NCBI GenBank assembly: GCA_949840465.1
Contig: CATKXE010000007.1
Coordinates: forward strand, 1 to 64,000
Length of the DNA: 64,000 bases
Reading direction: 5' to 3'
Source: an uncultured Lachnospiraceae bacterium
Lineage (GTDB): Bacteria; Bacillota; Clostridia; Lachnospirales; Lachnospiraceae
A model generated the notes under the pieces. It was not told the DNA's origin. It did no database searches and saw only the letters and a program-made list of their open reading frames with translations. A program made the position numbers and the translations under genes. Below, one piece after another: positions 51,659-56,667 of the stretch; the stretch's first letter is position 1; every line of letters starts with the position of its first letter.

Positions 51659-51675
51659 GAAAAAGAGCCGTTTTT

Positions 51676-51703
51676 GGGGCACCCTCCGTAAGGAAGGTGC
51701 CCC
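51676..51703. terminator. Hairpin after the aminotransferase gene
   Basis: GGGGCACCCTCC-gtaa-GGAAGGTGCCCC forms an 11-bp stem with one mismatch. TTTTT lies on its left and AAGG on its right, so termination strength is uncertain. It marks the left limit of the AT-rich island. Confidence 0.55.
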
Positions 51704-51757
51704 AAGGCTTTGCATCTCAAATTAAGTATTGTTGTATGAAAACGGTGTAGCAAGTTG

Positions 51758-51940
51758 CTATGTCGTTTTTGTTGCTCTTGCAGCTTTGTTCTGCATATGC
51801 TCTTGGAAATATTCTTCCATTTCTTCGGGGGAAGGCTCTCTGATAATGCCGATTCCGTTATAGCGGATTTCGACACTTTGGTAACGCTTGCTTTTAAATT
51901 TTCCTGCTCGCGTTCCAAAGACATTGACATTGTAGCGGTT
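51758..51940 (-). pseudogene. Gene remnant, possibly the C-terminal end of a serine recombinase
   Basis: A 60-codon open frame on the minus strand, too short for the ORF track, reads ...FKSKRYQSVEIRYNGIGII and REPSPEEMEEYFQEHM before a natural stop at 51758. It is preceded by an in-frame stop and has no start, so it is a fragment. The RYQ-VEI-YN-IG pattern resembles the end of DUF4368 serine recombinases, but this is a weak match by eye. A 138-aa ORF in another frame on the same strand overlaps it. If the identity is right, this is the scar of the element that delivered the neighbouring island. Confidence 0.4.
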
Positions 51941-52068
51941 TTAGTCCCTTGCTTACGAGGAATTATATTATACATTACAGAGTGATTGCTCGTTAAGATA
52001 TTAAAAGCATACTTTTACCTATACTTTTAAAAATATTGGAAATAATATTTTTGATTTGCTTTTTCAAG

Positions 52069-52135
52069 AAACTGTGTATTAAAAATTGTTGATATCCACT
52101 CTCTTTTGTGTTAGAATATTTTCAGAACACAGTTT
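52069..52135 (+). promoter_or_regulatory. abiE operon promoter flanked by inverted repeats
   Basis: TTGATA (52089-52094) and TAGAAT (52112-52117) are separated by 17 nt. The 9-bp arms AAACTGTGT (52069-52077) and ACACAGTTT (52127-52135) flank the promoter on either side. AbiEi antitoxins are known to repress their own promoter through inverted repeats, so these are likely operators. The gap 51941-52068 is AT-rich and holds no gene. Confidence 0.7.
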
Positions 52136-52167
52136 TAGATAATTGTAATTTGAAAGTTGGTGTATAA

Positions 52168-52773
52168 ATGGACAAAAAGAAAACTGCTGAAAAGGTAATA
52201 AGTAATACAGGTGGTATTGTTAAAACTTCCGAATTTGTTTCCGCAGGGCTTTCGAATTTTGATGTTGCCAATTTGTGCAATGATGGATATATCGAGCGTA
52301 TACGACACGGTTATTATCAGCTTGCAGGAAAAGAAGATATAAAAGAGGAACAAATACTTGCATCGCTTCTTCCTGAAGGTATTGTTTGTGTTGAGTCTGC
52401 ACTTTTTTATTATGGATACAGTGATTTTGCACCAAGGCAATGGTCTATCGCTGTTCCAAGGACATTTTCAAGAACAAGGCTGAAATTTGATACTTTGCCT
52501 ATGAAAATATATTACATTCAAAATTCTCAATTTGAAATAGGAAAAGCAAAAAGCAATTTTAATGGCGTGAAACTTGCTGTTTATGACCGTGAACGCACCA
52601 TTTGCGACTGTTTCAAATATCGCACAAAGCTCGACAATGAGCTGTTTAATAAAGCTCTTAATGCCTATGTCGCAGATGATAAGAAAAATTTAGGCAATCT
52701 TTCAAAATACGCAAAGGAAATGCGAGTTTACACAAAACTGATGAATATAATGGAGGTGCTTCTTAATGGCTGA
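52168..52773 (+). CDS. abiEi: AbiEi family antitoxin / transcriptional repressor
   Basis: The 201-aa protein has an N-terminal winged helix typical of AbiEi (residues 1-50: IVKTSEFVSAGLSNFDVANLC and YIERIRHGYYQL) and a C-terminal antitoxin domain (about 60-200, with VYDRERTICDCFKYR). It neutralises the toxin encoded next to it, acting as a type IV antitoxin, and represses the operon. It overlaps the toxin gene by 8 nt. The DNA is clearly richer in A and T than the flanking polysaccharide genes, a sign of transfer. The ribosome site is weak (GAAAGTTGG). Confidence 0.9.
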   Translation: MDKKKTAEKVISNTGGIVKTSEFVSAGLSNFDVANLCNDGYIERIRHGYYQLAGKEDIKEEQILASLLPEGIVCVESALFYYGYSDFAPRQWSIAVPRTFSRTRLKFDTLPMKIYYIQNSQFEIGKAKSNFNGVKLAVYDRERTICDCFKYRTKLDNELFNKALNAYVADDKKNLGNLSKYAKEMRVYTKLMNIMEVLLNG

Positions 52774-53662
52774 TATGGCTGTGTCCGTACTTGCAAGACT
52801 AAAAAACAAAGCAAAAGAAAGTGGTAGAAGTTATCAGCTCTGCTTGCAGCTTTTTTGCCAAGAGGAGTTTCTGCGCCGTTTAGAAAAATCAAAGTATGCA
52901 GAAAATCTTGTATTAAAAGGTGGATTGTTTATTTATTCTGTTACTGATTTTGACAGCCGGGTAACGGTGGATGTAGATTTTCTTCTTCAGAAAGTTCCCA
53001 ATACTCCTGAACAGTTAAAAGTTGTGTTAGAGGAAATCATTGCTACTCCGACAAAAAATGATTTTATTACCTTTGAAATTAAAGACATTGCACCGATTGC
53101 TATTCAAAAGAAGTATGCAGGTATCGGTGCTTCACTTGTAGCATATATCAAAAATACCAAAACGCCATTCAGCATTGATTTCGGTGTAGGGGATGTTATT
53201 GTGCCGAAGCAGGAAAAACGAAAAATTCCTACACAACTTGATGATTTTACTGCCCCGACGGTAAATACATATTCTCTCGAAACGACCATTGCCGAGAAGC
53301 TTGATGCAATTCTCAGCCTAATGGAATTTTCAAGCCGAATGAAAGATTATTACGATATTCATTATCTTGCAAATAAGTTTGATTTTGATGGCGATGTCTT
53401 GACCGAAGCGCTTAAAAAGACTTTTGAAAACCGTGGACACGCATTTACGATTGAACAGTTTGAGCGGATTATGGGTTTTGCCGATGATTCCGTCATGCAG
53501 AAAAAGTGGAGAGCCTTTACCCGTAAGATAGATACGAAAACTGCTGTTTTCGACACAGTGCTTAAAACAATAAATGCATTTCTTACGAAACCATTCACAG
53601 CAGCAGTACAAAATGAAGAATACGTTAAACAATGGTCAGCTTCCGTTTGCGAATGGAAGTAA
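52766..53662 (+). CDS. abiEii: AbiEii nucleotidyltransferase toxin
   Basis: The 298-aa protein has the four motifs of the AbiEii/MenT nucleotidyltransferase family: KGGLFIY (about residues 51-57), VDVDFLL (68-74, metal Asp69 and Asp71), TTIAEKLDAI (173-182) and KDYYDIHYL (193-201). Such toxins add nucleotides to tRNA or other targets and stop growth, aborting phage infection. All motif residues look intact, so the toxin should be active. The start has GGAGG 9 nt upstream. It is followed after 14 nt by the restriction-modification gene, which suggests one operon with it. Confidence 0.93.
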   Translation: MADMAVSVLARLKNKAKESGRSYQLCLQLFCQEEFLRRLEKSKYAENLVLKGGLFIYSVTDFDSRVTVDVDFLLQKVPNTPEQLKVVLEEIIATPTKNDFITFEIKDIAPIAIQKKYAGIGASLVAYIKNTKTPFSIDFGVGDVIVPKQEKRKIPTQLDDFTAPTVNTYSLETTIAEKLDAILSLMEFSSRMKDYYDIHYLANKFDFDGDVLTEALKKTFENRGHAFTIEQFERIMGFADDSVMQKKWRAFTRKIDTKTAVFDTVLKTINAFLTKPFTAAVQNEEYVKQWSASVCEWK

Positions 53663-53676
53663 TTTAGGAGGATATT

Positions 53677-55542
53677 ATGAACAGATTTGATATTATAAAT
53701 AGGATTGGCGATCAATACCGTATAGGTAATACTGAAACTGGTGAGTTCAGCTATACACAAGCCTTGAAAACTGTTGGTAAAGATATTAGGGATTACCAAA
53801 AAGCCACAACAGGAACCCAACACCAGTTTCTGGATATTCGTTTTGAAAACGAACGACTTACTGTTCTTGTAGAATGCAAAAATAAATTCAGTCGTTGGGA
53901 CAAGGCAAAAATTCAAGGGCAATTGCAAGACTATGTGCGTTTTGAGAAAGCATATTCCGATAAAAAGATTGTCGCTATACTTGCTGAAACCGACGGAGAC
54001 GATGTATGGGTATGGTATGGTCAGTCTGTTATTATCGATGACGAACACCGTAGGGAAGAAGAGACCGTCCTTCGCCCATTTGAAGAATATGAAAATTTGT
54101 GCTTTGGTAGAGTTAACGACAAAATTAAGGTTGTTGATTCTATTAAAACACTTAACGAAAAGCTTCATTCTGATGGCATCAACGAGAAATTACGCAGTCA
54201 ATTTGTTGGTACTTGCCTTCTTGCACTAAAAAACGGTCTTGTTTATAAAAATGTAAAAGAAACGTTGGATCCGAAAACGGGAAAGAAGCTTGTGCCTGAA
54301 AGAGTTGTTTTGAAGAGTGTCAAAGATATTCTTGAAGGTTTGCTAACCCGTGGTGGTAGCCTGAATAAGGCTGGAAAACTTGCTGTATTGAACAGTAAAG
54401 TCCTTGATGACCAAGATGTTACAAGCCTGACCTATAAAGAACTCGAAGATATACTGCAATTTATCGACAATAATGTGGTTCCATATATCAATGATAAAAG
54501 TACAGCAGGACAGGACTTACTGAATTTGTTTTTTACAACATTCAACAAATATGTTGGTAAATCCGATAAGAACCAGGCATTTACACCTGATCATATTTGC
54601 GATTTTATGAGCAAGGCAGTTGGCGTAAATAAAAACTCTCGTGTTTTGGATCCCTGTTGCGGAAGTGGAGCTTTCCTTGTCAGAGCAATGACAGATGCAA
54701 TGGATGATTGCGACACTGAAGAAGAACGTGAAGAAGTAAAGAAAAATCAAATTTTCGGCATTGAATATGAGGAAGGTGCATTTGGTTTGTCCTCAACTAA
54801 TATGCTAATTCACGGTGACGGCAACTCTAATGTTGTTCAGGATTCTATGTTTAAACGAGCTAATTGGATTGCAGAAAACAATATTAACATCGTATTAATG
54901 AATCCACCATACAACGCTACTAAAAAATGCTGCGACCCGGATTATACAAAGAGATGGGCTGCAAAGAAAAAGGAAGACCCATCTAAGGGACTGCACTTTG
55001 TTGAATGGGTAGCTCGTCACGTTCCTTCTACTTGTAAAATGGCGGTTTTGCTTCCTATGCAGGCAGCTATAGGTAATGCTGGTGATGTAAAAGACTTCAA
55101 AAAGAAAATGCTGGATAACTATACTCTTGATGCAGTGTTTTCTCTTCCCGTGGAAATGTTTTATCCCGGCGCTGCAGCGGTTGCCTGCTGTATGATTTTT
55201 GACCTTTCGCAGAAACACGAAAAAGCAAATAAAGATACTTTCTTTGGTTATTTCAAAGACGATAAATTTATAAAGAGAAAAGGGCTTGGTCGTATTGAGC
55301 GCACTGATTCCGATGGGAATAGCTTATGGGTTAAGACGAAGGAACAGTGGCTTAACCTTTATAAGAATAAGAGAGAGGTTCCGGGCTTATCTGTTATGCA
55401 CCGTGTTACTTGGAAAGATGAGTGGCTTGCAGAAGCATATATGGAAACTGATTATAGTACATTACAGGAGGCTGATTTCCAAAAAGTACTTAATGATTAC
55501 TTATCGTATCTTGTGAAAAGCGGAGGGGTAATCAATGATTGA
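53677..55542 (+). CDS. BcgI-like restriction-modification subunit: nuclease fused to N6-adenine methylase
   Basis: The 621-aa protein joins an N-terminal PD-(D/E)XK-type nuclease (about residues 1-150; Asp53 in FLDIRF, then VECKNK with Glu66 and Lys68) to a helical linker and a HsdM-like methylase (about 270-540). The methylase shows QAFTPDHICDFM, motif I DPCCGSG (325-331) and the catalytic NPPY (409-412). One chain carrying cutting and methylation plus a separate S subunit is the BcgI (type IIB) plan. There is no HsdR helicase. It has an AGGAGG site and overlaps the S gene by 8 nt. Confidence 0.88.
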   Translation: MNRFDIINRIGDQYRIGNTETGEFSYTQALKTVGKDIRDYQKATTGTQHQFLDIRFENERLTVLVECKNKFSRWDKAKIQGQLQDYVRFEKAYSDKKIVAILAETDGDDVWVWYGQSVIIDDEHRREEETVLRPFEEYENLCFGRVNDKIKVVDSIKTLNEKLHSDGINEKLRSQFVGTCLLALKNGLVYKNVKETLDPKTGKKLVPERVVLKSVKDILEGLLTRGGSLNKAGKLAVLNSKVLDDQDVTSLTYKELEDILQFIDNNVVPYINDKSTAGQDLLNLFFTTFNKYVGKSDKNQAFTPDHICDFMSKAVGVNKNSRVLDPCCGSGAFLVRAMTDAMDDCDTEEEREEVKKNQIFGIEYEEGAFGLSSTNMLIHGDGNSNVVQDSMFKRANWIAENNINIVLMNPPYNATKKCCDPDYTKRWAAKKKEDPSKGLHFVEWVARHVPSTCKMAVLLPMQAAIGNAGDVKDFKKKMLDNYTLDAVFSLPVEMFYPGAAAVACCMIFDLSQKHEKANKDTFFGYFKDDKFIKRKGLGRIERTDSDGNSLWVKTKEQWLNLYKNKREVPGLSVMHRVTWKDEWLAEAYMETDYSTLQEADFQKVLNDYLSYLVKSGGVIND

Positions 55543-56599
55543 TACATCTCAATGGAAGTTTTTTGATTTAATTGGCGATAACGGAATATTTAGAATTGAG
55601 TCTTGCAAGTGTAGTAATGCAGGAGAACTTCTGGAAGACGGAACAGATATTGAATATATCGGTGCTAAAAAAGATGATAATGGGGTTATGACTCTTGTTA
55701 AGTACAACCAAAACCTTGTTACGAAAGGGAATTGTATTATTTTTATTTGCGATGGACAGGGCTCAGTAGGATATGCCAATTATATAAATCACGATTTTAT
55801 AGGCTCAACTACATTGTCTGCAGGTTATAATAGTCATTTGAATGAGAAAAATGGCTTGTTTATAGTTACTGTCCTTGATCTGGAGCGTTATAGATATTCA
55901 TTTGGACGCAAATATAAGCCCAATTTACCAAAGGCAAAAATCAAATTACCTTCTACCCCTACTGGTGAGCCAGATTGGGCGTATATGGAAAAATATATTG
56001 ATTCTTTGAGCTTTCATCCAATAACAACAAGTATACATAAAGGCAATTCAGTTTTGTTGGATACAAAAGAGTGGAAAAAGTTTTATCTACACAAGCTATT
56101 TGTTGCAAGTATGGGTAACGGTATTGATGCCATTCTTACCACAAGCGATGACCCCAAATACAATTATGTTTCCCGGGATAGCAACGGAAATGGTGTAGTG
56201 GGATTCGTAGATGAGATTGAGGGTGAAGAACCTTTTCCTGCTGGGGCAATGTCATTAGCTTTGGGCGGAAGTTTTTTGGGGTCTTGCTTTATTCAGAAGA
56301 AAACATTCTATACTGCTCAAAATGTTGCTGTACTACAAGAAAAGATTCCTTTAACTAATCATACAAAGTTGTTTATTGCAACGCTTATTAGAAACGAATG
56401 TAAGATAAAATATCAAGCGTTTGGTCGAGAACTTAATGCACATTTTCGAAAAGATTTTACCATTAAGTTGCCTGTTAAGTCCGATGCAAACGGTATAGTG
56501 TATAATGAAACGCATGAGTTTTCGGACGAGGGCTATATTCCTGATTGGGATTGGATGGACAAATATATGAAATCCTTGCCGTATAGTGACAGGATATAG
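55535..56599 (+). CDS. Restriction-modification specificity subunit, BcgB-like
   Basis: The 354-aa protein has two target-recognition halves. The first (about residues 5-160) begins SQWKFFDLIGDNGIF and ends at EPDWAYMEKYIDSL; the second (about 178-350) begins TKEWKKFYLHKLF and ends at IPDWDWMDKYMKSL. Each half closes with the same (P)DW-M-KY-SL helix, the usual internal repeat of S subunits. It would bring the fused nuclease-methylase to a two-part DNA site. Its size is close to BcgB and shorter than many type I S proteins. It overlaps the upstream gene by 8 nt. Confidence 0.87.
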   Translation: MIDTSQWKFFDLIGDNGIFRIESCKCSNAGELLEDGTDIEYIGAKKDDNGVMTLVKYNQNLVTKGNCIIFICDGQGSVGYANYINHDFIGSTTLSAGYNSHLNEKNGLFIVTVLDLERYRYSFGRKYKPNLPKAKIKLPSTPTGEPDWAYMEKYIDSLSFHPITTSIHKGNSVLLDTKEWKKFYLHKLFVASMGNGIDAILTTSDDPKYNYVSRDSNGNGVVGFVDEIEGEEPFPAGAMSLALGGSFLGSCFIQKKTFYTAQNVAVLQEKIPLTNHTKLFIATLIRNECKIKYQAFGRELNAHFRKDFTIKLPVKSDANGIVYNETHEFSDEGYIPDWDWMDKYMKSLPYSDRI

Positions 56600-56613
56600 A
56601 AGGAGGCACATTG

Positions 56614-56667
56614 ATGAACGAATTGCGAATGACAGCGCTTCCTGTTGCTGAAATTACTATAATGTAA
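56614..56667 (+). pseudogene. 17-codon ORF stub at the right edge of the island
   Basis: A strong AAGGAGG site precedes ATG and a 17-codon ORF, MNELRMTALPVAEITIM, that stops at 56667. Such a good ribosome site 15 nt after the S gene suggests a further gene of the operon whose body was lost by deletion or by the junction with the polysaccharide locus. A genuine micropeptide is possible but less likely. Confidence 0.45.

Follow-up and report, generated by a model that had tools for sequence, protein, structure and literature searches.

Within a 64,000-nucleotide (nt) stretch of DNA from a gut bacterium, an uncultured member of the Lachnospiraceae (contig CATKXE010000007.1, positions 1 to 64,000, here called the window), the segment 51720-56667 carries an AbiE-type toxin-antitoxin pair directly followed by the genes of a restriction-modification (R-M) enzyme. 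This raises the question of whether the two are separate units that met in a defense island or parts of a single one and, if the latter, what a toxin-antitoxin pair does at its head. The segment is probably a horizontally acquired four-gene defense operon in which AbiEi would set the level of the whole transcript and the AbiE pair would be an exchangeable 5' head. A sequence-only reading of the segment had described the four-gene order with two 8-nt overlaps and a 14-nt gap, and the open reading frame (ORF) coordinates bear this out, with all genes on the plus strand:

52168-52773, plus strand: abiEi, 201 residues, antitoxin and putative autorepressor
52766-53662, plus strand: abiEii, 298 residues, putative nucleotidyltransferase toxin, overlapping abiEi by 8 nt
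53663-53676, plus strand: 14-nt intergenic gap with the ribosome-binding site AGGAGG, between abiEii and the nuclease-methylase gene
53677-55542, plus strand: gene for a fused PD-(D/E)XK nuclease and gamma-class N6-adenine methylase (RM), 621 residues
55535-56599, plus strand: gene for the specificity (S) subunit with two target-recognition domains (TRDs), 354 residues, overlapping the nuclease-methylase gene by 8 nt

The AbiE and restriction components are each known; what appears to be new is a recurrent pattern of AbiE-headed defense operons. This wider pattern, related AbiE pairs at the head of many other defense systems, was not seen in the sequence-only reading. Relatives of AbiEii were drawn from class, family and phylum samples and their gene surroundings read. 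In 27 of 74 loci the gene behind abiEii has the same orientation and lies no more than 100 nt away, and the gene before abiEi does so in 1 of 69 (p 2e-8). By itself such an asymmetry of strand and spacing would mean no more than that a transcript starts at AbiE; the identity of the following genes, the cargo, matters more. Cargo stands at -34 to +50 nt from abiEii, that is, in overlaps or short gaps. Directly behind abiEii are found Gabija (L168, gap 48 nt; GajA 7e-230, GajB 3.5e-175), Lamassu LmuA and LmuB with an overlap of 4 nt (L174, L176, L261 and L266; LmuA 3e-147, LmuB 5e-250; in L261 a different gene cuts the system off behind LmuA), further nucleases resembling LmuA (L175, L269, L295, L297), R-M enzymes of type III (L247, 5.5e-114), IIG (L121, 4.5e-182) and C5 (L172) kinds, a methylase accompanied by HerA (L259), a gene pair of HerA type (L246, L252) and the beginning of HamA from Hachiman (L171, 6.6e-41). 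More distant AbiE pairs carry HerA-type cargo (L302, 49-67% identical, gap 13 nt) and Gabija-like cargo (L305, gap 75 nt). In loci that had first been classed as solitary AbiE, broken or cut-off cargo lies directly behind an intact abiEii (L245, L248, L255, L260, L263 and L296), and weaker traces are present in L243, L258 and L267. The neighbors in L124 were not counted as a defense system, the only similarity being that of the third gene to a UvrD-type helicase.

The gene directly behind an AbiE of this type is therefore a good defense-system candidate, and two examples may be given. The pair behind the three different AbiE pairs of L246, L252 and L302 is conserved, consists of a 382-395-residue protein without family matches and a HerA/mad8-like protein, and is a candidate unnamed defense system; in L302 it is followed by an Hsp90-type ATPase. 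The genes at L272:2356-4890 overlap AbiE, encode a protein of 378 residues that weakly matches dCTP deaminase and an FAD-type protein of 462 residues, have no PADLOC match, and are a possible unnamed cargo.

Nearly all cargo is found in two clades of the AbiEii tree, of 29 and about 22 rows, and the cargo labels are not clustered on that tree (15 changes against a shuffled mean of 16.3). Near-identical AbiEii proteins have different cargo in L174, L268, L269 and L172, and the cargo junctions fall exactly at the abiEii stop codon. AbiE pairs that are nearly identical have exchanged their cargo, and in other loci AbiE has persisted after its cargo was lost. About 23 of 47 loci of the two clades, in samples not chosen by cargo, carry intact or broken defense cargo, and a PADLOC scan of 20 neighbors in neighboring clades gave no clear defense match and two weak ones (p 4e-5), a value that is indicative only because the procedure was not quite identical for the two counts, remnants having been sought by comparison with known cargo. 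The recurrence suggests that AbiE, as a portable head, controls or guards the defense genes that follow it.

The same association is met when the search starts from the restriction gene, for which 80 relatives were found in GTDB genomes. AbiEi and AbiEii directly precede it in L036 (Neglectibacter, 60/83% identical to those of the window) and L104 (Ruminococcus, 53/66%), and in L039 an AbiEii of another type (PF08843 2e-40, PADLOC AbiEii 3e-106) stands before it, itself behind a probable regulator gene. AbiE and this enzyme therefore occur together in other genomes, contrary to the possibility raised earlier that they never would. The L104 restriction gene falls in a different supported clade of the restriction tree from that of the window, and a single clade of the three AbiE-bearing rows is weakly rejected (approximately unbiased (AU) test, p 0.021). 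Other relatives have helix-turn-helix (HTH), Phd/YefM, HicB-like, Fic or AAA_14/DUF4143 genes in the place of AbiE; regulator- or toxin-antitoxin-type genes thus often precede the enzyme, and AbiE is one of several. A DUF4143/AAA_14 ATPase gene lies 16 nt before the restriction gene in L034:4617-5984 and L035:4629-5984. At L104:8493-10709 two more genes, the first of OLD/AAA type, lie directly behind the AbiE-headed restriction gene, and this operon may hold a third defense module.

The AbiE identity of the first two genes is upheld by profile searches and catalytic motifs. AbiEi matches AbiEi_4 (PF13338) at 1e-6, above the cut-off, in a hidden Markov model (HMM) search and PADLOC AbiEi at 8e-63, and among solved chains it matches by phmmer S. 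agalactiae AbiEi 6y8q (2.8e-19) and AbiGI 9hlo_A (1.4e-19). AbiEii matches PF08843 (HMM search, 1e-47), PADLOC AbiEii (1e-93) and AbiGII 9hlo_B. The DUF1814 toxin motifs have been defined as hG[G/S]-x15-DhD and R..KD..D (PMC3985639); in AbiEii the catalytic motifs are intact, G52G53-x15-D69-x-D71, K178, R191-x-K-D194 and D197 being invariant in 7 aligned sequences. The arrangement is that of type IV AbiE systems (S. agalactiae AbiEi/AbiEii; AbiGI/AbiGII), in which a winged HTH antitoxin-regulator gene precedes and overlaps that of a DUF1814 nucleotidyltransferase. AbiEii is a putative toxin, predicted to be neutralized by AbiEi, and AbiEii has been proposed to act on tRNA (PMC7725324).

Control of the genes behind AbiE would be exerted in the region upstream of abiEi, which has the following elements:

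52069-52077 / 52127-52135, no strand assigned: operator-like inverted repeat AAACTGTGT / ACACAGTTT, the arms enclosing the promoter
52089-52117, plus strand: sigma-70-type promoter TTGATA-N17-TAGAAT with TG before the -10, 10/12 consensus matches
52152-52162, plus strand: leader GAAAGTTGGTG, from an alignment of 31 upstream regions

The promoter lies 50 nt before abiEi. Across the 31 related loci the symmetry center at -64 from the abiEi ATG ranks best of all centers (z 4.1, outer arms), and promoter and leader hold their position in most of the upstream regions, the leader being kept before most clade A abiEi genes regardless of cargo; the layout of promoter, repeat and leader occurs with or without cargo. 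No second convincing promoter was found in the segment, and the gap behind abiEii is too short for one. Transcription of all four genes from the abiE promoter appears to be the simplest reading of the spacing, the lone promoter and the recurrence, and the earlier proposal of one apparent operon is supported by the tight same-strand spacing and the single promoter. The AbiEi of S. agalactiae represses its own operon via two inverted repeats around the promoter (PMC3985639), and in M. tuberculosis two repeat pairs are used (PMC7319586). The window shares with type IV AbiE the presence of inverted, here operator-like, arms around the promoter, but the S. agalactiae repeat has N27 between 11-bp arms, whereas the arms in the window are about 50 nt apart and of another sequence. 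Repression of the restriction genes by AbiEi is plausible from this layout.

The enzyme itself is best assigned, from sequence motifs and a structural model, as a Type IIB (BcgI/BsaXI-like) restriction enzyme, in agreement with the BcgI-like identity first given to it. The nuclease-methylase protein matches N6_Mtase (HMM search, 6e-31) and PADLOC REase_MTase_IIG (3.5e-52), and the S subunit matches Methylase_S in two stretches (HMM search, 5e-20) and PADLOC Specificity_II (1.9e-26). E20/E23-D53-E66xK68-Q82, DPxxGSG (DPCCGSG in the window, 325-331) and NPPY (409-412) are invariant across an alignment of 27 relatives of this protein. The N-terminal 180 residues were modeled with a predicted local distance difference test score (pLDDT) of 87, and the modeled nuclease domain is closest to BpuSI (Z 8.2), a type IIG enzyme, and BsaXI (Z 7.6), a Type IIB enzyme; the Foldseek E-values are weak (0.009 and worse), though the list is mostly of PD-(D/E)XK nucleases. 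Nuclease and gamma N6-adenine methylase thus share one chain, and the resemblance of the nuclease fold to BsaXI together with the separate, two-TRD S chain argues for Type IIB. An enzyme of this type would be expected to recognize a bipartite site, to cleave on either side of it and to assemble as 2RM:1S. Unlike the BcgI/BsaXI-like enzymes with which it shares this design, the window enzyme is preceded by AbiE, and in some relatives, such as L104, RM is fused to an S-like part. This single-chain form, of about 810-830 residues, is present at L104:6001-8493 and in L041, L045, L047, L049, L053 and L055. The two halves of the S chain have different relatives, which makes the gene a domain shuffle. 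Its N-terminal TRD shares 66-74% identity with S genes paired with RM proteins that mostly reach no more than 52-56%, and its C-terminal TRD shares 60-89% with a different set (TRD relatives in L058, L073, L092, L103 and L125), a pattern of shuffling across RM subfamilies.

The C proteins of type II R-M systems are small DNA-binding autoregulators encoded upstream of, and co-transcribed with, the restriction gene. No Cro/C1-type HTH C protein was found by HMM search upstream of the restriction gene, the sole upstream regulator being the AbiEi_4 protein, which may fill the C-protein job here; by analogy AbiEi would take the role that C proteins, or HTH or Phd/YefM genes, may have before related enzymes and that BrxR/CapW repressors have in other systems (PMC9122601). 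It differs from C proteins in belonging to another protein family and in bringing a toxin. In the favored explanation AbiEi would bind the inverted repeat around the single promoter as an autorepressor of the whole operon, so that one transcript for the antitoxin, the putatively tRNA-attacking AbiEii, the restriction-methylase and the specificity subunit would be held at a set level. If AbiEi were to fall, e.g. upon takeover of the cell by a phage, toxin and restriction enzyme would rise together, and the AbiE clade would serve as the exchangeable 5' head of unrelated defense cargos, of which the cargo here is a Type IIB enzyme. A number of observations weigh against this explanation. Most of the 80 restriction-gene relatives are without AbiE in front, some contigs ending too early to tell, so that the enzyme needs no AbiE and AbiE is an added head rather than one of its components; roughly half of the loci belonging to the two AbiE clades lack recognizable cargo; the repeat of the window is by itself not significant, 27 of 150 shuffles reaching its 23-bp score; and promoter-like matches across the region are at chance (17 found, 16.6 expected), an internal promoter in abiEii being possible.

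Other explanations account for parts of the same evidence. AbiE might be mainly a stabilizing module, loss of the locus poisoning the cell so that the following genes are kept and control of the cargo is incidental. This addiction role, a possibility of some substance though not the probable one, fits the swapping of cargo and its decay while abiE stays open, and AbiE stabilizes plasmids (PMC3985639) and integrative and conjugative elements (PMC11062541). It explains why AbiE outlives its cargo, but it predicts linkage rather than overlapping reading frames and leaves the upstream place of AbiE and the -34 to +50 nt spacing unexplained; moreover, since cargo decays behind an intact AbiE, the pair gives it no protection from point decay. 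The abiE genes might instead be mostly a shared stretch for homologous exchange of cargo, with regulation secondary, as the near-identical AbiEii proteins with different cargo and the junctions at the abiEii stop would allow; recombination cannot alone explain the conserved operator layout or the cargo-free AbiE clades, and this explanation is unlikely.

It is more doubtful still that AbiE and the restriction genes are only separate units that meet in defense islands. Both parts are mobile and common, and two of nine upstream neighbors of cargo loci are also defense-like, so that some island effect exists, but the tight same-strand spacing occurs on one side of AbiE only, and the pattern is limited to two AbiE clades outside of which the 20 scanned neighbors included no clear defense gene. 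Equally improbable is a fail-safe, the back-up role raised in the sequence-only reading, in which the cargo or its activity restrains the toxin and AbiEii is set free once the restriction enzyme has been blocked or circumvented. The analogy is to PrrC of EcoprrI, encoded in a Type IC operon (PMC3874165); PrrC cuts a tRNA, and the action proposed for AbiEii is also directed at tRNA (PMC7725324). The same AbiE type is found before unrelated cargos and alone, which argues against a conserved specific contact with one enzyme, and there is no sign of sensing in the sequence. Control, addiction and fail-safe roles are not mutually exclusive. A broader proposal, advanced tentatively and with less confidence than the addiction role, is that these clades of AbiE form a dedicated and portable head serving both control and fail-safe, with AbiEi coupling any attached defense to a growth-arresting toxin; interference of a phage with the operon would then trigger toxin and defense together, and cargo would be exchanged behind AbiE.

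The operon proposed here resembles a number of described systems in part. Type IV AbiE is described as bicistronic (PMC3985639), whereas the window locus has further genes directly behind the pair. The BrxR/CapW WYL repressors that precede BREX, CBASS and other systems (PMC9122601) are likewise autorepressors that head diverse defense operons via inverted repeats, but each acts as a lone regulator, from another family, and has no toxin as its partner. In EcoprrI-PrrC, too, a restriction operon includes the gene of a toxin that attacks tRNA, as is proposed for AbiEii; there the restriction complex keeps PrrC in check, whereas AbiE has its own antitoxin and many cargos and occurs without this enzyme. 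The nuclease-protease pairs of Hachiman, AVAST, Lamassu and DRT (PMC12799240) are also gene pairs repeatedly taken up by unrelated defense systems, but in those systems the pair acts as the effector, whereas AbiE forms a toxin-antitoxin unit apart from the cargo and has a promoter of its own. No description of AbiE-headed defense operons was found in the literature searched, the coverage of which was incomplete; AbiE is there bicistronic or listed beside other systems. The roles of toxin-antitoxin systems in chromosomes are a long-standing question, and the repeated presence of AbiE in front of restriction, Gabija, Lamassu and Hachiman-type genes lets one ask whether the antitoxin sets the level of defense and whether the toxin acts when defense fails.

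Acquisition of the segment by horizontal transfer, the remaining part of the favored explanation, is supported by its composition and its borders:

51669-51712, plus strand: hairpin of terminator type belonging to the upstream DegT gene, marking the left border of the insert (RNA fold -32.3 kcal/mol, z -5.7)
51761-51886, minus strand: C-terminal remnant of a serine recombinase, 42 codons, at the left edge of the insert, by sequence identity
56699-56746, minus strand: hairpin of terminator type belonging to the convergent sulfatase-like gene, marking the right border of the insert (minus-strand z -3.1)

The G+C content (GC) of 51720-56667 is 37.1%, the lowest of any 5-kb stretch within the window (mean 48.6%), single insert genes having 36-39% and flanking genes 47-52%, so that the A+T-richness noted earlier holds. 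The recombinase remnant is 47-49% identical to serine recombinase C-termini in same-genus genomes (L319, L321). The low GC, the place between two terminators and the remnant together indicate an acquired insert. No border direct repeats of at least 10 nt were found, and the shared AAAAAGAGCCG/CGGCTCTTTTT at the borders was rejected as an insertion repeat, both belonging to the two terminators. Upstream lies a DegT/EryC1 aminotransferase gene (DesI/PseC-like), and downstream, convergent, a membrane sulfatase-like gene and then rfbB/rfbA/rfbC-like genes, these four being named from sequence. Relatives of the DegT flank are at best 66% identical (at most 57% in the same genus) and none has the sulfatase flank beside it, hence no empty site was found among them. 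Directly after the S gene a 17-codon ORF (MNELRMTALPVAEITIM, 56617-56667), for which a search found no matches, has its own ribosome-binding site, and the end point 56667 of the sequence-only reading takes it in.

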